Below are positions 155 through 11,224 of a stretch of DNA of 31,798 nucleotides, piece by piece. Position 1 is the first letter of the stretch. Each line of letters opens with the position of its first letter. This DNA comes from an uncultured Anaerolineales bacterium (GTDB taxonomy: Bacteria; Chloroflexota; Anaerolineae; Anaerolineales; Villigracilaceae): contig CALFXA010000191.1 of NCBI GenBank assembly GCA_937928015.1, positions 1 through 31,798 on the forward strand. The letters are read 5' to 3'. The translations under genes were made by a program, and so were the position numbers. Under the pieces are notes generated by a model. It was not told the origin of the DNA. It did no database searches and saw only the letters and a list, made by a program, of their open reading frames with translations.

Positions 155-1120
155 TCAGACGTGCAGCCAGCATTTGACCTTGCGGTTGCCCTGGGTCACG
201 ACGGGCGGTTCCTCGGAGCATTTTTCCATGCGGAAGGGACAGCGCGCGGCGAAGCGGCAACCTTTGGGCAGGTCGATCAGGCTGGGCGGTTGACCGGTGA
301 TGAACATCGGGTCGGATTCGCTGCGCAGGCGCGGGACGCTGGCCATCAGCATTTGCGAGTAAGGATGCAGCGGCGCGGGGAAGAAATCCTTGGCGCCCCC
401 CACTTCCACGATCTGGCCCGCGTACATGATGGCAACCTCGTCGGCCAGCTCGCTCGAAGTGGCGATGTCGTGCGTGATAAGAATGAAACTGGTGCCCAAC
501 TCATGCTTGATGCGCTTGAGCACGTTCATGATGTTGGCCTGGGTCAGCAGGTCGAGGGCGGAGGTCGGTTCGTCGAGCACGATCAGCGCGGGCGAAGTGA
601 CCAGCGCCATCGCCAGGGCCACGCGCTGACGCATCCCACCGCTCAGCTCGAACGGATAGCGGTTGATGAAATCCTCGGGGACGCCCACGTGCTGGAACAT
701 GCGCTTCGCCAGGTCGAGCGCCTCGGCCTTTTTCACGCCGAGGTGGACCATGGCCGGCTCGGCCACCTGTTCGCCCACGCGCAACACCGGGTTGAGCGCG
801 TTCATGGCAGCCTGCGGCACAAGCGACATCGCCGCCCAGCGCACGTTGTGGCGGAACTCTTCCTCGTTCAGCGCCATCACGTCCACGCCTTGTATAAAGA
901 CCTTACCCGAGTAGCTTTCCACGTTGCGCGGCAGGAGCCTCAACATGGCCTTGGCCAGGGAGCTTTTTCCACAGCCCGACTCACCCAGGATGACCACGGC
1001 GCGATGGGCGTCCAGGTCGAAGTCCACGCCATCCACGGCCTGGACGGTGCCGTGACCGGTCCGAAAGTGCAGCACCAGGTCTTCGACGTGCAGGAGTTGT
1101 TTGGTCGGTGTTGGGTTCAT
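155..1120 (-). CDS. Peptide ABC transporter ATP-binding protein, OppD/DppD type
   Basis: A 321-residue ATPase subunit that would power import of peptides (or another SBP_bac_5-type solute) from the cytoplasmic face. All ABC motifs are visible: Walker A GESGCGKSS (46-54), Q-loop Gln103, signature LSGGMRQ (159-165), Walker B with DEP (about 179-185) and switch His217. The C-terminal oligopeptide-transporter extension has four cysteines (288, 294, 301, 317); in some DppD proteins equivalent cysteines hold a 4Fe-4S cluster, so that is possible here but inferred. The ATG overlaps the upstream permease stop as ATGA and has GAGGG just upstream. The frame stays open upstream into the permease gene, but that extension is out of frame with the permease and has no homology. 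Length is normal for the family. Confidence 0.95.
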   Translation of the reverse strand: MNPTPTKQLLHVEDLVLHFRTGHGTVQAVDGVDFDLDAHRAVVILGESGCGKSSLAKAMLRLLPRNVESYSGKVFIQGVDVMALNEEEFRHNVRWAAMSLVPQAAMNALNPVLRVGEQVAEPAMVHLGVKKAEALDLAKRMFQHVGVPEDFINRYPFELSGGMRQRVALAMALVTSPALIVLDEPTSALDLLTQANIMNVLKRIKHELGTSFILITHDIATSSELADEVAIMYAGQIVEVGGAKDFFPAPLHPYSQMLMASVPRLRSESDPMFITGQPPSLIDLPKGCRFAARCPFRMEKCSEEPPVVTQGNRKVKCWLHV

Positions 1121-2445
1121 ACGTCCCTCAATCTCGGGTTGAATACGCGGTCCAGGGCGAAGCCGAGCATGGCAAAGCCCAGCCCGGTGATCATCAGCAG
1201 CACGGCGGGTTCGAGGATCCAGTAATAGTAGCCGCGATACAGCGCGCCGTTGGCCTGCGCGTCCTGAATGATCTTGCCCCAGGTGGGCAGGACGGGGTCG
1301 CCCAGTCCCAACACGGCCAGGGAGGCTTCCAGAAAGACGAAGGCAGGCACCGAGGAAACCAGCCCGGGGATGAGTAGCGGAATCATGCGCGGGATCAGAT
1401 AAAAGAAGATGATGCGCGGACTGCTGGCGCCGTACGCCTGGGCCGCCTCGATGTACATCGACTCTTTGACCTGCATGAAGATGGAACGATAGCCCTTGAT
1501 GGCACCCGTGAAGATGCTCAGCAGGATGGTCGCACCCAGGATGACCCAGATGCTGCGCGAGTAGAATGTGCCGATCATGATCAGGATCGAGAGGAAGGGC
1601 AGCACCAGGTTGACCTCGGTGATGCGCTGGATCAACTCGTCGAGCCAACCGCCGTACCAGGTGCCGATTGCTGCGATGACCATCGTCAGCACCAGGGTGC
1701 CGAGCGAGGCGATCAGGCCGAAGGCCAGGGCCACGGGCGCGCCCCACAACAGCGGCACGACCAGGTCGCGACGGGACTGATCCGTGCCTGCCAGGCCGTA
1801 GACCTGTCCGTGGAAGACGAACTCCACGTCGATATCGGAGTCAGGCTCGAAGGTGGTCCCGCTGATCTGAAGCTGGTACTGACCCTTGAGCGGCTGCCCG
1901 GTCTTGGGGTCCGAGAACAGGGCGGGGAAGACATCCTCGGTGCGCAGGCGCGTCATCAGCTTTTGATCCTGCGAGAAGCGATAGGTCAACTTCTCGCCCA
2001 AACTGGCGTTGGTGATGCGGATCTTGCGCCCGTCCGGAGTCAGCAATTCGGCGGAGAGGAACGGCTGCTTGGTCTGATACTTTGACGTGACGTACAGGAT
2101 CATCTCCTGCGGATAATAGTCATATTGGAAGTCGAGCGGATAGTTGATGCTGATCGAAGCCGTGCCTTCCTTGCCGGGCGTGACGGTCTTCTCCAGGCTG
2201 CCGTCGGTGGTGCGCACCGAGAAGGACTCGGCATATTTCTTGCTCGAAAAATTATTGATCCAGGCAGGTGGGGCGAATTTGGGGTTCTGGTACCACACGT
2301 CCTCGCCGCCGCGCCACAAGCGGATCGCCTCGGCATAGGGAATCTTGATCATGGCGAAGATCGCAGTGGCTACCAGCAGCAGGACCACCAGCATCCCCAG
2401 CACCGCCGAGGGATACTTCAATAAATTTTGCAATGAGGATTTCAT
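1117..2445 (-). CDS. Peptide ABC transporter permease, OppC/DppC type, with large extracytoplasmic insertion
   Basis: A 442-residue inner-membrane permease. One membrane segment (about 14-34) is followed by roughly 180 residues of soluble, beta-rich, extracytoplasmic sequence (35-215). Then comes the DppC landmark GTDQSRRDL (220-228) and the five-helix BPD_transp_1 core with the EAA loop (EAAQAYGASSPRIIFFYLIP), which docks on the ATPase. Canonical DppC proteins are about 300 residues with a much shorter TM1-to-GTD region, so the insertion is unusual. The start ATG lies one base after the stop of the upstream permease, with GGGGAGAA as ribosome site, so the two are probably translationally coupled. 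The stop overlaps the ATPase start. Confidence 0.93.
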   Translation of the reverse strand: MKSSLQNLLKYPSAVLGMLVVLLLVATAIFAMIKIPYAEAIRLWRGGEDVWYQNPKFAPPAWINNFSSKKYAESFSVRTTDGSLEKTVTPGKEGTASISINYPLDFQYDYYPQEMILYVTSKYQTKQPFLSAELLTPDGRKIRITNASLGEKLTYRFSQDQKLMTRLRTEDVFPALFSDPKTGQPLKGQYQLQISGTTFEPDSDIDVEFVFHGQVYGLAGTDQSRRDLVVPLLWGAPVALAFGLIASLGTLVLTMVIAAIGTWYGGWLDELIQRITEVNLVLPFLSILIMIGTFYSRSIWVILGATILLSIFTGAIKGYRSIFMQVKESMYIEAAQAYGASSPRIIFFYLIPRMIPLLIPGLVSSVPAFVFLEASLAVLGLGDPVLPTWGKIIQDAQANGALYRGYYYWILEPAVLLMITGLGFAMLGFALDRVFNPRLRDV

Positions 2446-2446
2446 A

Positions 2447-3571
2447 TCAGTTCTCCCCGATCTTGACGCGTGGGTCGACCAGCGCGTACACAAAATCGAG
2501 CAGGAAGACGGTCATGGCCAACAGGTAGGCGTAGATGATGGTCGAGCCGACGATGATCGGGATGTCGTACAGGCCGATGGCGCGATAAAGCGTGCGCCCC
2601 AGCCCGGGCCACAGGAAGACTGTCTCGGTGATGGTTGCGCCTGTCCACAGGGTAATGATCAGCAGGGCAAAGTTGGTGATGATGTTGGGCAGGGTCGGGC
2701 GCAGGATGTAGCGGCTCTCGATGTCGCGTGCGGGCAGGCCCTTGGCCTTGGCCATTTCCACATAGTCTTCGCTGGAGTAGATCAGGAAGAAGGTGCGGTA
2801 GTTGTAGATGCTCAGGAAGAAGGAACTGATGATTAGCGAAGAAGCGGGCAGGATCAGATGCTTGAGCAGGTTGAGCGAATAAGCCAGGGTGCCGGTCGGC
2901 GGCGGCGAATCGACCATGCCGCCGAAGGGCAGGATCTGAAAGATGGCGGCGAAGATCAGGATCAGGAATATCCCGTAGAACCAGGGAGGCACGGCCGACG
3001 TGGGCGAGAGCGCCACGACCAGCTTGTCCCAGAAGTTACCGTAACGGCGGGAAAGTCCCAGGGCCAGGAAGATGCTGGCGAAGAACAGGAACAATTGCGA
3101 GGAGCCCATCAACAGCAGGGTGGCGGGCAGACGCTCCAGGATGATCAGGCGCACCTGCTTGGACCCCGCGTCGCTGGTCATGTTGATGGCGCGGCCCAGG
3201 TTCAGGGTCAGGGCGTTGCTGAGGTAACGGACATTCCGCACGACCAGGGGCACGTTCAGCCCGAGGCGTTTTTCCTCCTGGGCAATCGTGTCTTCGATCA
3301 ATTGCTTGCGCACGGCCGGATCGAGCTTTTGCATGGCGGGATTCAGCGCGATCCGCTGGGTGATCGTATCGCGGACCTCGTTCCGCATGATCTGATCCAC
3401 GTAGCCGCCCATGTTGGCGATCATGATGGTCAGGTACACGCCGACCACCACCGTGACGAACAGGGTCAACAGGCGCACGACCACGTAGCGCGAGACGCGC
3501 AGGAAGGTGCTGTTGCGAAGGGAGGTTTTCGCTCCCGAGGCTTGGGATGGGGTTTGGGCAACAACTGCCAT
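2447..3571 (-). CDS. Peptide ABC transporter permease, OppB/DppB type
   Basis: A 374-residue permease with an N-terminal membrane segment (about 30-52) and a BPD_transp_1 core containing the EAA loop (EMAKAKGLPARD, about 272-283). It forms the channel heterodimer with the DppC-like protein. The start is set at the ATG at 3571 because GAGG lies seven bases upstream; an upstream in-frame start at 3613 would sit inside the intercistronic hairpin. Between TM1 and TM2 there is a charged segment (about 56-106) that makes the extracytoplasmic part longer than in classical DppB. It is the second gene of the operon, after the binding protein. Confidence 0.93.
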   Translation of the reverse strand: MAVVAQTPSQASGAKTSLRNSTFLRVSRYVVVRLLTLFVTVVVGVYLTIMIANMGGYVDQIMRNEVRDTITQRIALNPAMQKLDPAVRKQLIEDTIAQEEKRLGLNVPLVVRNVRYLSNALTLNLGRAINMTSDAGSKQVRLIILERLPATLLLMGSSQLFLFFASIFLALGLSRRYGNFWDKLVVALSPTSAVPPWFYGIFLILIFAAIFQILPFGGMVDSPPPTGTLAYSLNLLKHLILPASSLIISSFFLSIYNYRTFFLIYSSEDYVEMAKAKGLPARDIESRYILRPTLPNIITNFALLIITLWTGATITETVFLWPGLGRTLYRAIGLYDIPIIVGSTIIYAYLLAMTVFLLDFVYALVDPRVKIGEN

Positions 3572-3594
3572 AAAACACCTCGCAGGTAAGGATA

Positions 3595-3628
3595 CAGGCA
3601 GGGGTAAGGTCATCCTTACCCCTGCCTG
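3595..3628 (-). repeat. Perfect 15-bp inverted repeat between binding-protein and permease genes
   Basis: Arms 3595-3609 and 3614-3628 are perfectly complementary around a 4-base loop. In the minus-strand transcript this GC-rich stem sits 21 bases after the binding-protein stop and before the permease ribosome site. No U-run follows, so it is probably not a complete intrinsic terminator. Stems in this position in ABC importer operons commonly stabilise the upstream mRNA and lower downstream expression (family knowledge); that role here is inferred. Confidence 0.85.
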
Positions 3629-3649: not shown

Positions 3650-6235
3650 TTATGGGACGACGACGAAGTCGATGGAGGTGAAGGCAGGGATGGCCACGGG
3701 GATCGGGACCACTGCCACTTCGAGACGGGCGGAGCCGGTCGGCATCTGCGCCAGGGTGGCCGCGTCCAGGGTCACCTGGTACTGGCCGTCGGCGACGAAG
3801 CTGGCTTCACCGACCTTGACCACGGCACCGCTGGCATCGTACAGAATGTACTTGACCTGCTTGATGTCGGCCTGAGCGTAGGGCTGGTCGTTGAAGGACA
3901 CCATCACGTCGAAGGCGGATTCAGCGCTGCCGCTCACCTGGGCGGGACCGTCGAGCTGGATGCTGGCCAGTTTGGGTTCGCTAAAGACGGCCCATTCATC
4001 CGACGGATCGGAGGAGTCGGCGAACTGCTTGAGGACGAGCGACTTCTCGGTGGTGTAGACCTTGTCGAGGTAGTAGGGGCCCGTGCCGATCCAGAAATGA
4101 CCGTGCGCCTCATACCACTTCTTCAGGCTGGCGTAGCGCTGGGCGGCTTCCTCTTTGGTGAGGTACTGGCCCAGGGTCGGCTCGAACGGGATGTAGGTCT
4201 CGCTCTCGGCCTGGTCGAGGTACTTGGCCAGGATTTCGAGGCTGGGTCCGCCCACCCAGGAGGTTTGTTCAATCTGTTCGGTGTCGGCTTTGTTGGAGGT
4301 GTAGGCCAGTTCGCCGTTTTCTTCCGCCAGGTTCGAGATGGCGAAGACCTGCCAACTGTTCTCACCGGAGAGGCCGTTGGGGGAGCTGGGCCACAGCGGG
4401 AGGATGTTCAGTTCGGCGTCGGCGTTGTAGGCATCCGAGTAGGACTCGATCACCAGCGGGTCGGTGGAGACGACGCGGTAACCTTTGAAGGAAGCCAGGA
4501 AGGCTTCGAAGCTCGACACATAGGATTCGTCGTAAATGACGCTATCGGGCTTGGCGCGGTCGAAGGTCTCGATCATCGCCATGACGAAATCAGCGGCGGA
4601 AATGGGGCTGCCATCGTGCCACTTGACGGTGGTGTACAGGTTAGCGGGGAAGGTCACCACACTCTTGACATTGGCGGTGGTGCCATCGGGATATTTCTCG
4701 GCTGCGGTGATGAACTTCTGGGTCTTGGCATCCCAGTCCACCCACGTATCACCCGGGACCTCGATGCTGTCGGCGGTCTTCATGGTAAACCAGTCGAGAT
4801 TCTTCGTGATTGGCAGACCAGCCTTGACTGTTAACTCAGCGCTTTCGATGCGTTGCGGCCAAGACAGGCCAGTGTAAGGATCACCCATCAGACCGCCGCT
4901 GCCGGTTATATTGTCAACACCGGTGGAGGTGGCGCGCATGATATTGGAATCCCACACCCAGTTGCTGCCGGAGATGGTGTTCCACGGCTCGGTGAACAGG
5001 TCGACGGTGCCGACCTTCATCGTGCCGCCTTCCTGACCGACGAAGCGCAGGTTGTACGGGCCAGCGTACGCGCCTTCCACGCCCGCGGCCAGGTCATAGG
5101 TCACCTGGACGTTGCTGTTGTAGGGCGAGTACTGCACCTGCTCGATCACAAACACCTGGAGCGAATCTTCCAACGAGAGTTCGAGCGCGCGCGCCATCAT
5201 CTGGTCGCGCTGCTCCTTCGAGGAGAAGGTACCCTGGGCCAGGTCGTCACCCAGTTTCTGGAACTCGGGATCGGACACGTTCGAGATGAAGGGATCCACT
5301 GCCTGGACGCTGCTGTTCAGGTACATCTGCTGGATCTGGGAGCGCTCGTCGCGCGTCAGGCCGGAGGGCAGCCAGCCGGCGGTGTACAGATTCCACAGGC
5401 CTTCCGAGGCCTTGGAGCCGCGCCAGATGGGGGCCGCTTCGGAGGAGGTCTTGTAGGCGCGTTCCACCGTGAAGCCGACGGCCTCAAGCTGGTTGGCCAC
5501 GTAATCGCCCATCGGTTTGCGGGTGCCGTCACCGTCCGAGCGGATCAGGAAGGTCAGGCTGACCGGCTTGCCGTTGTATTGCCATTTGCCATCGGCACCC
5601 TGGGTGGCGCCCATGCCTGTCATCTCATCGGCGATGACCTGCTTGGCCTTGTCCAGGTTATAGGCGTACTTGGCTTCGAGGGCGCGGGCCGTGTCGATCA
5701 GATTGGTGTATTCCACCAGTTGGGTGGTGATGGCGAAGAATTTGGGGAGGGAACCGCCCGCGTAGATCTCCTGGTTGACGTAGTTGCGGTCGATCATCCA
5801 GTTGACCGCTTCGCGGATCTTGCGGTTGGAGAACGGGTTCAGGACGGTCTGGTCGTCGAACGTGGCCGGGTTGAACATGATGGAGTAGCTGCCGCCGTAC
5901 GACTGTGAATACTTCAAGCCGGCTTCCTTGATGGCCGGGTAAATATCCGAGGCCAGGCCGTAGGAATACAGGTCGATATCTCCAGCCTTGAGCTGGGAAA
6001 TGGCGGAATCGCCGGCGATCACAGACACGTCGATCTCATCCAGCCAGCCGCCGTGGCGGTCGGTCTTCGGCGCCTGTGTGGCGGCTTCTGTTGCGGCCTC
6101 CGTGGCGGACGGGGCCTCTGTCATGGCGGGCTCTTCGGTGGGGGCGGCGGTCTGCGTCGCGGGCTGGCATGCGGAAAGGATCATGCTTACGATCATCAGC
6201 AGACCGAGGGTGGCGTACAGGACTTTCGATCTCAT
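3650..6235 (-). CDS. SBP_bac_5-family extracellular solute-binding lipoprotein, apparently circularly permuted
   Basis: An 861-residue lipoprotein that captures the solute outside the membrane for the downstream permeases. It starts with a lipoprotein signal peptide (LSAC, Cys23) and an Ala/Thr/Glu/Pro linker (24-57). Unlike the usual order, the lobe normally found late in the family comes first: the LDEIDV/GDIDLYSYGL stretch (65-94) and NPFSNRKIREAVNWMIDR (133-150). The usual N-terminal start GGTMKVGTVDLF is at 403, VKWHDGSPISAADF at 537-550 and GTGPYYL at 717. An Ig-like tail follows (about 760-861). Family members are normally 500-600 residues. The ATG has AAGGAG upstream. It is first in the importer operon. 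The ligand is not deducible; peptide is the default. Confidence 0.9.
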   Translation of the reverse strand: MRSKVLYATLGLLMIVSMILSACQPATQTAAPTEEPAMTEAPSATEAATEAATQAPKTDRHGGWLDEIDVSVIAGDSAISQLKAGDIDLYSYGLASDIYPAIKEAGLKYSQSYGGSYSIMFNPATFDDQTVLNPFSNRKIREAVNWMIDRNYVNQEIYAGGSLPKFFAITTQLVEYTNLIDTARALEAKYAYNLDKAKQVIADEMTGMGATQGADGKWQYNGKPVSLTFLIRSDGDGTRKPMGDYVANQLEAVGFTVERAYKTSSEAAPIWRGSKASEGLWNLYTAGWLPSGLTRDERSQIQQMYLNSSVQAVDPFISNVSDPEFQKLGDDLAQGTFSSKEQRDQMMARALELSLEDSLQVFVIEQVQYSPYNSNVQVTYDLAAGVEGAYAGPYNLRFVGQEGGTMKVGTVDLFTEPWNTISGSNWVWDSNIMRATSTGVDNITGSGGLMGDPYTGLSWPQRIESAELTVKAGLPITKNLDWFTMKTADSIEVPGDTWVDWDAKTQKFITAAEKYPDGTTANVKSVVTFPANLYTTVKWHDGSPISAADFVMAMIETFDRAKPDSVIYDESYVSSFEAFLASFKGYRVVSTDPLVIESYSDAYNADAELNILPLWPSSPNGLSGENSWQVFAISNLAEENGELAYTSNKADTEQIEQTSWVGGPSLEILAKYLDQAESETYIPFEPTLGQYLTKEEAAQRYASLKKWYEAHGHFWIGTGPYYLDKVYTTEKSLVLKQFADSSDPSDEWAVFSEPKLASIQLDGPAQVSGSAESAFDVMVSFNDQPYAQADIKQVKYILYDASGAVVKVGEASFVADGQYQVTLDAATLAQMPTGSARLEVAVVPIPVAIPAFTSIDFVVVP

Positions 6236-6369
6236 ATCTCTTTCTCCTTGTTGGTAGGTTGGGATCACGGACGAACTCGAAACGGATACGCGCTGTCAAC
6301 CTCCTTTCGCCATGGGAGGGTGGCGGCTCAAAGGGGCGGCCCGGAACGGGCTGGAAAAGGCTGCGGGCG

Positions 6370-6798: not shown

Positions 6799-9700
6799 AT
6801 GAAAGCCCGCCCGCTCCCCCTCCTGTTCCTGTTCCTGGCCACGACCCTGGTCCTGGTCTCGTGCGGCGGTCCGACTCCCACCCCCAGTCCCATTCCCAGC
6901 CCAACGGCCATACCGCAGGCGGGGGCGGCTTCCTCCATTATTCGCAGCAGCCGCTACAATCCCTCGATCCGCTTCGAGCGGATCGGTATCGAAGAGGGGC
7001 TCTCGCAGAACTCTGTCGATGTCATCTTGCAGGACTCGCAGGGTTTCCTGTGGTTTGGGACGCAGGATGGGCTGAACCGCTACGATGGCTACACCTTCAC
7101 CGTCTACCGCCCCGATGTGGATAATCCCTATGCCATCAGTGACCGTTGGGTGACGGCCCTGGCCGAAGATAGCGACGGCGATCTATGGGTGGGTACCCGC
7201 CAGGGCGGACTCAATCGTTTTGATCCGCATCTGAATCAATTCACCACCTATCGCCGCGACCCCAATCAATCCTCCAGCCTGAGTGACAATCGTGTCACGT
7301 CCCTGTTGTTCGACAGTCGCGGCGCGCTATGGGTCGGCACTCAAAGCGGACTGAACCGATTCAATCCCGCCGACGAGACCTTCTCCCGATACGGTGTGGC
7401 CGACGGCTTGAGCGGCGACCGTATCACCGCCTTATATGAAGACTTCAACGGCGCGGTGTGGGTCGGCGCCACTGATGGCCTTACCCGCTACGATCCCGAG
7501 AACGGCAGCATGCGGATCTTCAAGCACGATTCGAATGACCCCGCCACGCTCGGCAGCAGCCGCATCACCGCACTGGCCGAGGACGCGGACGGCAACCTGT
7601 GGGTGGGAACCAGCAGCGGGCTGGCTCGTGTCGACCGCGTGACGGGCACCATCAAACGCTACCAGCACGACCCTGCCGTCACCTACAGCCTGGCCGATGA
7701 CATGGTCCTTAACATCTACCGCGACCATAATGGCGGCATGTGGGTGGGCACCAACGAAGGGCTGGATTTTTACAACATTCGCAATGATCGCTTTGTGCAT
7801 TATCGTAACCAACCCGCCAATACGAACAGTCTGAGCAACGATTCCGTCCTGTGCATCTTCGAGGATAACAGCGGGGTGTTGTGGGTTGGCACTTACGGCG
7901 GCGGCCTGAACAAGTACAACCGTCAGCAGGATCGTTTCACTTATTTCCGCTATGACCCCAATGATTCTGGCAGCCTGGGCGCCAACATGATCTTCCCCAT
8001 CCATGTGGACCCGCGCGGCATGGTCTGGATTGGAACCTACGGCGCCGGCCTTGATCGTTTCAACCCCATCACCGGACGATTTATTCATTACCGTCACAGC
8101 GCGCAAAACTCATACAGCCTCAGCAGCGACGAGGTCTATTCGGTCTTCACGGATACGGACGGCCTCGTATGGGTGGGGACTTCCCGTTCCCTCGACCGCC
8201 TTGACCCGTCCACGAACAAGTTCAAGCATTTCTTCCCCTCCACCAAAGACGATGACTTCAGCCTCTCAGGACTGCCGGTCTACGTCATTTATGAAGATAG
8301 CAACGGCGTCCTGTGGGTGGGCACCAGCCGCGGCCTGGATCAGTTCGAACCGCAGACCGAGACCTTCATCCACTTCCAGCCGAATCCCGCCAACGAGGAC
8401 AACCAGGTGGTGTCCATCCTGGAAGATGCGAGCCATCACCTATGGATTGGAACCTTTGGCGGAGGCCTGCACCGATTCAACAGCCACGGCGAGGGCTTCA
8501 TCAGCTATTACAACGATCCCAGGGACTCATCCAGCCTGAGCAACAATACCGTCTTCTCCCTCTTGCAGGATCGAGAGGGCATCCTATGGGTCGGCACGGG
8601 CGGCGGCGGCCTGGACCGTTATGTGCCCGAGACGGATAGCTTCACGCACTACACGGAGAAGAATGGTCTGCCCAGTAATGTCATTTACGGCATTCTTGAG
8701 GACGACACCGGCGACTTGTGGATGAGTACCAACAATGGCCTGGCCCGCTTCGACCGCAAGACTGAGACCTTCCGCACCTTCACCTCCAGTGACGGCTTGC
8801 AGAGCAACGAGTTCAACATGAGCGCCTACGCTCTCAGCCCGCGCGGCGAGATGTACTTTGGCGGTATCAATGGTGTCAACTCCTTCCGCCCGTTGCAGAT
8901 CTCCGACAGCGTGTACGTCCCCTCGGTGACGCTGACCTCGATCACCCAGGATGGTCAACCCTTGCGAACCGACCAGCAGATTCAATATACGCGAGCCATC
9001 ACCCTCACCTGGCCGCAGAACGGATTCGAGTTCGAATTTGCCGCCCTGGCTTATGGTCAGCCCAATCGGAACCAGTATGCCTACATGCTCGAAAACTTCG
9101 ATACGAGCTGGAACTTCATTGGCACTAGCCGCAACGGACGTTATACCAACCTGCCGGGCGGCACGTATACCTTGCTGTTGAATGGCTCGAACAGCGACGG
9201 CATCTGGAGCGACTCGCCCCTGCGCGTCCAGGTTACGGTCGTGCCGCCCTTCTGGCAGACGAACTGGTTCCGTGTGCTGGCCGTGCTCGTGCTGGCCGTA
9301 GCCATCGCGGGCGGATACCGATTCAGGATGGAGACCGTCCAGCGCCGCAACCGCGAACTGGCCGATCTGGTCCGTTCGCGTACCCGCGACCTCGAAAAGC
9401 GCACGCTCGAAATCGAGACGCTTTACGAGGCGGACGAGCGCATCCTGCGCACGGTCAGCTTCAACCAGGTCTTCCGCACGCTGGTGGATGTGGCCGCCGA
9501 CAGCCTGCGTGCCGACCGCGCCGTCGTCTTTGTTTGGGACGAGGAAAAGTCCCTGGCGGTGCCGCGGGTCAGCCGCGGGTTCAGCGAGAGGACCCTGGCG
9601 GTGATGCGCTACGCGCGCGGTGAAGGGATGGTCGGAAAGGTGTTCGAGACGGGCGAAACGGCCATCGTGCCCGAAATCCAACTCGAGGATATGCGTCCCG

Positions 9701-10545
9701 ACATCCGCGAGGCCATCTTGGCGGAAGGAATTCAATCCTTCGTACACCTGCCCATCAAGGTGGATGCGCACACGATTGGTGTGTTCAACGTCGGATTCAT
9801 CCGCGCGGGTGTCATCAATGACGACATCGTGCGTCTGTTCACAGCCCTGGTGCAGCGTGCTTCATTATCTGTGGCGAACATGCAGCTTTTCGAGCAGACC
9901 AAGGACCTGGCGGTGATGGAAGAGCGCAACCGCCTGGCACGCGACCTGCATGACAGTGCCAAGCAGAAGGCCTTTGCTGCCTTGGCGCAACTCGGCACTG
10001 CCAACGGCATCCTCAGCCAGCTCAACCCGGTCAACATCCGCTTGCATTTGAACGAAGCTGAGAACCTGGTCTATGAAGTCATTCAGGAGTTGACCTTCCT
10101 CATCCAGGAGATCTATCCCATTGCCTTGCAGGAGAAGGGCCTGCCCACCACCCTACGTGAATATATTTTCGAATGGGAGAACCGCAACGACATTCCGGTC
10201 AACCTCACCATTCGCAACGAGCGCCCGCTCGAATTGGACAGAGAGCAGGCGATCTATCGTATCATTCAGGAAACGCTGGCGAACATTGCCCGTCATAGCG
10301 GCGCGACGCGCGTGGACATCTCGCTGATCTACCGACCGATCCTGCTGGAGGTGGCGGTGGAGGATAACGGCCGCGGCTTCGACGTCAACCAGAAGATTCG
10401 CGGCATGGGGCTGCGGTCCATCCGCGAACGGGCGGCCAGCATCCGCGGCAGCGTACAGATTCAAAGCGAACCCGGCCAGGGGACGCGGGTTCTGATTCAG
10501 GTCCCGATCAAGATCCCCGAGATGGCAGAGATGGAGAACATGTAA
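6799..10545 (+). CDS. Propeller sensor histidine kinase (Reg_prop x14, Y_Y_Y, TM, GAF, HisKA_3, HATPase)
   Basis: A 1248-residue membrane sensor kinase. The N-terminus looks like a lipoprotein signal (LVSC) plus a Thr/Pro/Ser linker. About 14 repeats of the form LWVGT..GLnRfdp..F follow, enough for two seven-bladed propellers, then a Y_Y_Y domain, a membrane segment (about 824-842), a short coiled coil, a GAF domain (about 875-1030), and an NarL-type transmitter: ARDLHD with phospho-acceptor His1051 and an HATPase ending in DNGRGFD and GMGLRSI. Ligand sensing is presumably extracytoplasmic; related hybrid systems sense glycans, but the ligand here is unknown. The response regulator gene starts one base after the stop. 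The start codon has no ribosome site and sits just after a -10 box. Confidence 0.95.
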   Translation: MKARPLPLLFLFLATTLVLVSCGGPTPTPSPIPSPTAIPQAGAASSIIRSSRYNPSIRFERIGIEEGLSQNSVDVILQDSQGFLWFGTQDGLNRYDGYTFTVYRPDVDNPYAISDRWVTALAEDSDGDLWVGTRQGGLNRFDPHLNQFTTYRRDPNQSSSLSDNRVTSLLFDSRGALWVGTQSGLNRFNPADETFSRYGVADGLSGDRITALYEDFNGAVWVGATDGLTRYDPENGSMRIFKHDSNDPATLGSSRITALAEDADGNLWVGTSSGLARVDRVTGTIKRYQHDPAVTYSLADDMVLNIYRDHNGGMWVGTNEGLDFYNIRNDRFVHYRNQPANTNSLSNDSVLCIFEDNSGVLWVGTYGGGLNKYNRQQDRFTYFRYDPNDSGSLGANMIFPIHVDPRGMVWIGTYGAGLDRFNPITGRFIHYRHSAQNSYSLSSDEVYSVFTDTDGLVWVGTSRSLDRLDPSTNKFKHFFPSTKDDDFSLSGLPVYVIYEDSNGVLWVGTSRGLDQFEPQTETFIHFQPNPANEDNQVVSILEDASHHLWIGTFGGGLHRFNSHGEGFISYYNDPRDSSSLSNNTVFSLLQDREGILWVGTGGGGLDRYVPETDSFTHYTEKNGLPSNVIYGILEDDTGDLWMSTNNGLARFDRKTETFRTFTSSDGLQSNEFNMSAYALSPRGEMYFGGINGVNSFRPLQISDSVYVPSVTLTSITQDGQPLRTDQQIQYTRAITLTWPQNGFEFEFAALAYGQPNRNQYAYMLENFDTSWNFIGTSRNGRYTNLPGGTYTLLLNGSNSDGIWSDSPLRVQVTVVPPFWQTNWFRVLAVLVLAVAIAGGYRFRMETVQRRNRELADLVRSRTRDLEKRTLEIETLYEADERILRTVSFNQVFRTLVDVAADSLRADRAVVFVWDEEKSLAVPRVSRGFSERTLAVMRYARGEGMVGKVFETGETAIVPEIQLEDMRPDIREAILAEGIQSFVHLPIKVDAHTIGVFNVGFIRAGVINDDIVRLFTALVQRASLSVANMQLFEQTKDLAVMEERNRLARDLHDSAKQKAFAALAQLGTANGILSQLNPVNIRLHLNEAENLVYEVIQELTFLIQEIYPIALQEKGLPTTLREYIFEWENRNDIPVNLTIRNERPLELDREQAIYRIIQETLANIARHSGATRVDISLIYRPILLEVAVEDNGRGFDVNQKIRGMGLRSIRERAASIRGSVQIQSEPGQGTRVLIQVPIKIPEMAEMENM

Positions 10546-10546
10546 C

Positions 10547-11224
10547 ATGACCAATCCAATGATACCCCCCATGAGCATCCTGATCGTGGACGACCACGAA
10601 GTGGTCCGCAACGGCATCCGCGCCTACCTCGGTACCCTGCCCGAATTCCATGTGGTGGGCGAGGCTGTCTCGGGCGAGGAGGCCATCAGCATGGTGACCG
10701 AGTTGATCCCCGATATCGTCCTGCTCGACCTGATTATGCCCGGCATGGACGGGGTGGAGGCCACCCGCCGTATCAAGCAGATCAGTCCGCGCACTCAGGT
10801 GGTGGTGCTGACTTCCTATCACGAGGATGTGCATATCTTCCCCGCACTCAAGGCAGGCGCCATTGCCTACATCCTGAAAGATATGAAGATGGATAAACTG
10901 GTCGAGGTGCTACACCGTGCCCTGCAAGGGGAGGTGACTTTGCATCCGCGTGTGGCGGCGCGCGTCCTGGAAAACATCCGCGGCGAGAACACCGAGGAGC
11001 AGCCGCTCTTCACCGAGTTGACCGACCGCGAATTGGACGTGCTCAAATTGATCGCCAACGGCATGACCAACAGTCAGATCGCCGAGAAACTTGTCATCAG
11101 CGAGAACACCGTCAAGGGCCACGTCAGTAATATCCTCAGTAAATTGCACCTGGCCGACCGCACGCAAGTGGCGGTCTACGCCTGGCAAAGCGGCATTGTC
11201 CAGCGCGAACCGCGCGGCAAATGA
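10547..11224 (+). CDS. NarL/FixJ-type response regulator
   Basis: A 225-residue DNA-binding regulator. The receiver domain shows the acidic pair Asp15-Asp16, phospho-acceptor Asp61 (VLLDLIMPGMDG), Thr89 and Lys111. The LuxR-type helix-turn-helix (about 155-215) is clear in LTDRELDVLKLIANGMTNSQIAEKL and SENTVKGHVSNILSKL. It is almost certainly phosphorylated by the HisKA_3 kinase encoded one base upstream. Met9 (MSILIVDD) is an alternative start that would remove an N-terminal tail not typical of the family; the first ATG is kept because GGAG lies about ten bases before it. Targets are not deducible; the adjacent importer is one candidate. Confidence 0.96.
   Translation: MTNPMIPPMSILIVDDHEVVRNGIRAYLGTLPEFHVVGEAVSGEEAISMVTELIPDIVLLDLIMPGMDGVEATRRIKQISPRTQVVVLTSYHEDVHIFPALKAGAIAYILKDMKMDKLVEVLHRALQGEVTLHPRVAARVLENIRGENTEEQPLFTELTDRELDVLKLIANGMTNSQIAEKLVISENTVKGHVSNILSKLHLADRTQVAVYAWQSGIVQREPRGK

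Follow-up and report, generated by a model that had tools for sequence, protein, structure and literature searches.

The window that we analysed is a stretch of 31,798 nucleotides from an uncultured Anaerolineales bacterium (contig CALFXA010000191.1) and carries on its minus strand a gene for a binding protein together with genes for a transporter. The longest reading frame of the binding protein gene spans 3650–6268 with a GTG start, and the ATG at 6235 gives the frame 3650–6235. Read from this ATG, the product is an 861 amino acid lipoprotein of the SBP_bac_5 (cluster C) binding proteins. Residue numbers are those of the query protein P0001, which equal the numbering of an earlier note on this DNA plus 11. 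The features are:

6167–6235, minus strand: signal peptide with the lipobox ILSAC, Cys34 of P0001 (from the sequence, ATG start)
6062–6166, minus strand: linker rich in Thr, Glu, Ala and Pro after the lipidated cysteine (from the sequence; its columns are poorly conserved)
5054–6061, minus strand: the half of SBP_bac_5 that is C-terminal in the canonical order, here standing first (residues 70–405), with the motifs LDEI (6032–6043) and IREAVNWMIDR (5786–5818)
5039–5053, minus strand: junction from the canonical C-terminal end to the canonical N-terminal start (residues 406–410, from HMM boundaries)
3965–5038, minus strand: the half of SBP_bac_5 that is N-terminal in the canonical order, here standing second (residues 411–768; Pfam profile 26–139, 7fi3 107–304), with the motifs GGTMKVG (5009–5029), WHDG (4610–4621) and GTGPY (4073–4087)
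3653–3964, minus strand: C-terminal beta-sandwich, Ig-like (residues 769–872; sub-threshold FlgD_ig match, mainly strands in the model)
2447–3613, minus strand: permease, OppB/DppB-like (BPD_transp_1, Pfam E 4.8e-25)
1117–2445, minus strand: permease, OppC/DppC-like (BPD_transp_1, Pfam E 6.6e-17 on the frame 1120–2493; OppC_N below cut-off), start taken as the ATG at 2445
155–1120, minus strand: ATPase, OppD/DppD-like (ABC_tran and oligo_HPY, Pfam E 2.1e-25 and 3.5e-20), scanned as the piece 158–1078 without its first 14 residues

The operon of the window thus comprises two permeases and one ATPase and then meets the contig end; any second ATPase would lie beyond it. Nucleotides 1–45 are presumably an untrimmed Illumina adapter, which is read as the false peptide HSFPTRRSSDL, and the operon is cut there. 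Upstream of the gene, at 6799–11224, a divergent pair codes for a sensor of 1248 amino acids (Reg_prop repeats, Y_Y_Y, GAF, HisKA_3/HATPase) and a LuxR-type response regulator; this pair may control the transporter.

For comparison we kept the best 80 of 167 confirmed places in GTDB genomes, which come from about 75 genomes. At 63 of these 80 loci four transporter genes come after the gene in the order permease B, permease C, ATPase, ATPase (counting frames of at least 200 amino acids). Among the remaining 17, the downstream sequence is shorter than 5 kb at 13, and four (L003, L011, L067, L069) have a shorter, rearranged or absent set despite enough room. Every one of 22 aligned sequences has Cys34, as does each of the 28 sequences of alignment A2. 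The lipobox, the operon of the window and the gene sets at the 63 loci are those of a secreted or lipid-anchored binding protein encoded together with its permeases and ATPases. We regard it as very likely that the gene codes for a solute-binding protein that is anchored by a lipid, serves an ABC importer of the Opp/Dpp type and has a permuted cluster C fold. Judged from fold and operon, its most likely task is to bind an oligopeptide-like ligand between the lobes and to pass it to the permeases as an ordinary binding protein does. With known cluster C proteins such as DppA, OppA, AppA and NikA it shares the profile, the fold of the first half and the adjoining OppBC-like permeases and ATPases, whereas it differs in its chain order and its extra C-terminal beta-sandwich and is larger than most solved members.

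The family assignment is supported by a Pfam score of 103.6 bits for SBP_bac_5 (PF00496), well above the gathering cut-off of 32.4. The collinear canonical order of this family is, however, not found in the protein, as profile positions 148–351 correspond to residues 76–304 and precede positions 26–139. When the second half is scanned alone (window 3653–5074), residues 149–353 of the piece correspond to profile 26–139 with an E value of 1.7e-5 and 24.5 bits, which is below the cut-off for the piece taken by itself. All motifs named in the earlier note occur in the order read there, namely LDEI at residue 76, IREAVNWMIDR at 151, GGTMKVG at 414, WHDG at 550 and GTGPYYL at 728. The nearest solved structure, OppA of Thermococcus kodakarensis (7fi3), has the canonical order; query residues 550–750 align to its residues 107–304 and query residues 87–316 to its residues 334–583, and both blocks are above chance and in swapped order.

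An AlphaFold model from 95 diverse rows (94 of them permuted relatives) is one compact fold with a pLDDT of 93.6 and a pTM of 0.89, and the blocks around the junction at residues 406–410 have mean pLDDT values of 88–93. A first model from 22 close homologues was poor (pLDDT 54) and was set aside. The structural alignments shown for the model cover its residues 1–347, that is the first half, which aligns to known binding proteins; by their names the 50 listed matches look like cluster C proteins. By its sequence the second half is equivalent to the canonical N-terminal half. Thus, from the sequence and, for the first half, from the model comparison, the chain is circularly permuted: the old termini are joined, and the new ones lie in the loop that connects GTGPY with LDEI. 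The suspicion of the earlier note is borne out in this respect by the swapped Pfam and 7fi3 blocks, by the single high-confidence fold and by the order shared among homologues, and residues 58–400 as a complete canonical binding protein can be rejected for this gene. As to the extra Ig-like domain proposed there, a beta-sandwich of mainly strands does follow, but the FlgD_ig match at the C-terminus is weak (E 0.014; it scores 15.8 bits where the cut-off is 27). PF13860 is precomputed for two of the 120 listed homologues (P0101 and P0109), and a profile of the beta-sandwich is found at all of the best 80 loci.

At all of the best 80 of the 167 loci the C-half comes first, then the N-half and then the Ig-like domain. 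Two of these genes are incomplete, L056 being split over two frames and L045 cut by a contig end. Another metagenome-assembled genome (L001) holds a 96% identical gene of the same order, and the isolate Anaerolinea thermolimosa strain IMO-1 (L026) has it on a contig of 3.44 Mb. A misassembly or a chimera of two genes is therefore rejected for this gene, as the order recurs at 80 of 80 best loci from other genomes, one of them an isolate. The best 120 listed proteins cover 92–100% of the query; a motif script applied to these and the query called 111 permuted, ten undecided with one pattern missed and none canonical, and two half-profiles gave the order of the window gene for all 121. In a sample of 400 genomes of the Chloroflexota, with two candidates scored in each, 38 contain a match with an E value of 1e-30 or better. 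Members named by their source as Bathyarchaeia, Caldiarchaeum, Bipolaricaulota or a Firmicutes genome all have this order as well.

More distant relatives have other orders. Three protein searches (best 120, all 78 and best 120), among them one with the distant homologue L146 and one with relatives of canonical order, were sorted with the two half-profiles, and 305 of the 306 listed proteins, the query included, have both halves. We distinguish order A, the canonical one; order B, that of the window gene; order C, with the cut in a beta-hairpin of the C-half; and order D, with the cut in the N-half. Of the 305 listed proteins 238 have order B, 45 order C, 18 order A and three order D, and the remaining one is the truncated P0128; as the lists hold the best matches and are biased towards the query, these shares are not frequencies in nature. 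P0128 was called order A by the script, but it ends at position 163 of the C-half and is more likely an order C protein without its start; it is in no tree. An Ig-like domain is found in 188 of the 238 listed proteins of order B. The annotations given by the source for part of the best 120 (for example peptide/nickel transport system substrate-binding protein) are silent on the order.

Order C is illustrated by the distant homologue L146, which has C-half 167–336, then the whole N-half and then C-half 3–163, so that the cut (cut 2) lies in the hairpin DGKWxYNGKP. The order C proteins P0219 and P0225 are named by their source Anaerolineae and Chloroflexi. Order D comprises three metagenomic proteins known from their protein sequence alone; here cut 3 lies in the N-half near profile position 265/285, and all three start with a lipoprotein signal and end at most three residues from the cut. 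In the model cuts 1 and 2 are in loops or turns and cut 3 is at a helix end with the loop behind it. Two order A relatives (A4) align collinearly to 7fi3 over 33–599 (E 4.8e-29), and P0001 and one of these two, P0159, align in two swapped blocks with 39% and 32% identity. P0127 (D) and P0125 (C) can be aligned as two rotated blocks with identities of 81% and 71%; their first 54 and 52 residues, the signal peptide, are still 49% identical.

Transporter genes accompany some of the other orders too. Both permeases follow the order C gene L146 up to the end of the fetched stretch, and both permeases and two ATPases follow the order C gene L201 and the order A gene L205, the start of which is cut off by a contig end. 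No such neighbours are found within more than 4 kb at L204 (C), L206 and L207 (both B). Counted by a simple rule over entries that include some repeated genes, a lipobox is present in 18 of 18 entries of order A, 43 of 48 of order C and three of three of order D; in order B it is present in 247 of 312 with and 31 of 60 without an Ig match. In a far group of order B only one of ten has a lipobox and six of ten have a C-terminal hydrophobic helix instead. The archaeal members P0257 and P0265, named Bathyarchaeia and Caldiarchaeum, end in such a helix, and their starts as printed lack a lipobox; their anchor thus seems to be at the opposite end of the chain. Fusions also occur in order B: L138 (1483–4707, minus strand) lies behind a matrixin-like peptidase domain and P0194 behind a protein kinase domain.

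The number of order changes was counted on trees that are independent of the order, with the halves placed in common columns. Clustering reduced 456 family entries, some of them the same gene as two or more loci, to 92 representatives; five entries with fewer than 520 filled columns had been dropped beforehand (P0128, P0177, one part of L056, L160 and L165). A careful tree holds 58 of the 92 representatives and an outgroup tree 55 of the 92 plus eight outgroups. The 92-row tree needs seven order changes; A forms a single clade in it and D appears at three separate positions. The 58-row tree again needs seven, and over the 5–95% range of 200 bootstrap trees of this tree D accounts for three label changes and C for six. 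The AU test rejects D as one clade (p 2.8e-40), C as one clade (p 7.7e-13) and B as one side (p 8.1e-10). The N-half tree needs eight changes and the C-half tree seven; both keep A as one clade and put D in three places beside the same relatives (P0255, P0125 and P0131). Only the N-half tree stars the grouping of A with P0215, and the C-half tree leaves 24 of its 55 inner branches open. The trees thus show at least seven changes across four linear orders, and we are highly confident that in the family of the window gene the mature body was rotated repeatedly behind the N-terminal signal. With one binding-protein fold rotated repeatedly and apparently retained, the family is more unusual than the earlier note suspected. 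L153, a separate origin of order C, is cut at the site used in the main C group, and a single cut is common to the three D rows; this may reflect a shared constraint or an unrecognised recombination path.

The direction of these changes depends on the root. In the trees A is nested in C and C in B, so A is probably a return to the canonical order; it is a shallow clade with the C row P0215 as sister (98/96 in the 58-row tree). Eight canonical binding proteins from Chloroflexota, far from the family, served as outgroup and place the root on a B-order branch. The contrary reading, that order A is ancestral and that C and then B derive from it with no return, agrees with the usual order of SBP_bac_5, and the AU test does not reject a tree that keeps every other row on one side and joins A to the outgroup (p 0.39; its lnL is 5.95 lower). 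As the outgroup was thereby indecisive, minimal ancestor deviation (MAD) was added; it gives 0.2506 for the B root branch against 0.3712 for the A branch, which ranks 131 of 181. A plasmid search for relatives of P0159 as a further outgroup found nothing. As the outgroup and MAD both root on the B branch, the path would lead from B through C to A, and D would have arisen on three occasions. Given these two rootings and the shallow position of A beside a C row, we consider an ancestral order A unlikely and a return to the canonical order in this lineage probable. If this is true, a present-day protein of normal appearance has permuted ancestors.

Another question is whether the orders could result from joining different genes, either by fusion of two partial copies, as the earlier note considered, or by an assembly join of neighbouring genes. 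Genomes do hold many SBP_bac_5 genes (A. thermolimosa has 12 PF00496 matches in 11 genes), and tandem copies do occur, two each in L147 and L143 and three in L053, where three permuted genes stand in a row on one strand of a Candidatus Aquidulcis genome. Nevertheless, each half is present only once in the gene and the order is the same across loci, in the 96% identical gene as well as in more distant ones at 79 other loci, which refutes a fusion for order B; the half-trees place the A and D rows alike and the predicted fold is a single one of high confidence. Piecewise identities, too, argue for the most part against chimeras. In most of the A, C and D proteins examined, the best matches of the pieces belong to one group of relatives. 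Each of the four pieces of P0127 (D) is matched best by P0125 or P0124 (both C), at 72–83%; all four pieces of P0146 match B proteins best, and the three A proteins examined match C proteins throughout. In L153 (C) the B gene L147 is the best match of three of four pieces (58–62%) and is not in the best four for the short fourth piece. Less clean are P0154 (D), in which the shortest piece and one other have other best matches by one or two points, and most of all P0191 (B), which is among the three rows that lie behind the C-to-B change. The N-half pieces of P0191 point in part to C and its C-half pieces to B, so that some mixing is possible in these two proteins. Taken over the family, such joining is very improbable. 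Somewhat less remote is a history in which the halves were once separate polypeptides that were rejoined in different orders, fission and fusion being a recognised route to circular permutation according to the relevant part of PMC3320104. Against it, a pair of separate halves was not noticed in passing among the fetched loci, the break of the L056 gene is inside the N-half and away from any cut site, and separate splits would be needed for cuts 2 and 3; we regard it as improbable. The simplest and likely route to repeated rotation would rather be an in-frame tandem duplication of the body behind the signal peptide, after which trimming would leave a rotated body, new ends being tolerated only at certain surface places. 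Besides the tandem copies named above, genomes G401 and G761 have both B and C genes, and G741 has a C gene and partial copies of undecided order. An intermediate with two bodies in tandem was not seen among the relatives.

To our knowledge natural circular permutations are uncommon; in most cases a family shows just one, and it is observed long after it arose. DNA methyltransferases have several linear orders of one fold. They and other families with repeated permutation are treated in PMC3320104, which lists Jeltsch 1999 and Bujnicki 2002 among its references. For families with repeated permutation, permutation by duplication has been invoked and intermediates have been documented, as stated in the section concerned of PMC3320104. 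Those families are enzymes, whereas the present family consists of transport proteins for which no intermediate was found; unlike them, it changes order between relatives that are some 71–81% identical, behind a similar signal peptide. The family is large and changes order at this close distance, and three of its four orders are represented by many intact proteins; with such relatives questions otherwise hard to reach become testable: the route of permutation, which loops accept new ends, the role of the place of the anchor, and the effect of the order on folding or ligand release.

Among natural permuted binding proteins TpMglB-2 (Tp0684) was the sole one recognised in the literature searched; we make no wider claim that cluster C permutation is unpublished. 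It is a binding protein of an ABC transporter for which a Type Ic or cluster Bc has been proposed, and the pertinent part of that report raises anchoring as a possible reason for the permutation (PMC4990184). As described there, it resembles our protein as a naturally permuted, membrane-tethered lipoprotein whose order is common to its homologues (PMC4990184). It differs, on the same partial account, in having a cluster B glucose-binding fold and one permuted topology, whereas the family described here belongs to cluster C and shows several cuts and repeated changes. By analogy, as TpMglB-2 is tethered too, membrane anchoring may matter for permutation.

A second permuted SBP_bac_5 family is found in the Anaerolineae. 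In A. thermolimosa (L221, 1480–3183, minus strand) a lipoprotein of 568 amino acids has profile 210–366 before 2–209 and starts just before the AIDR helix. Among 249 genomes of the class of A. thermolimosa, with five candidates scored each, 14 have matches at E 1e-60 or better. Seven of these share the permuted order (the query and six others, 67–72% identical), and seven are canonical, at 37–47% identity. The second family thus seems to have been permuted independently, at a fourth site, and canonical relatives of it are available. Altogether it is likely that the family of the window gene is topologically fluid, with at least seven rotations behind the lipoprotein signal, reuse of a few permissive cut sites and one lineage back at the canonical order, and that the second family is independent. 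For the construction of biosensors from binding proteins, the four cut sites that nature has accepted in cluster C proteins may also be useful.

The canonical relatives of the second family are long. In L234 (784–3186, minus strand) an SBP_bac_3 domain precedes SBP_bac_5, which makes two binding-protein folds in one chain, and L232, L233 and L235 are of like length.
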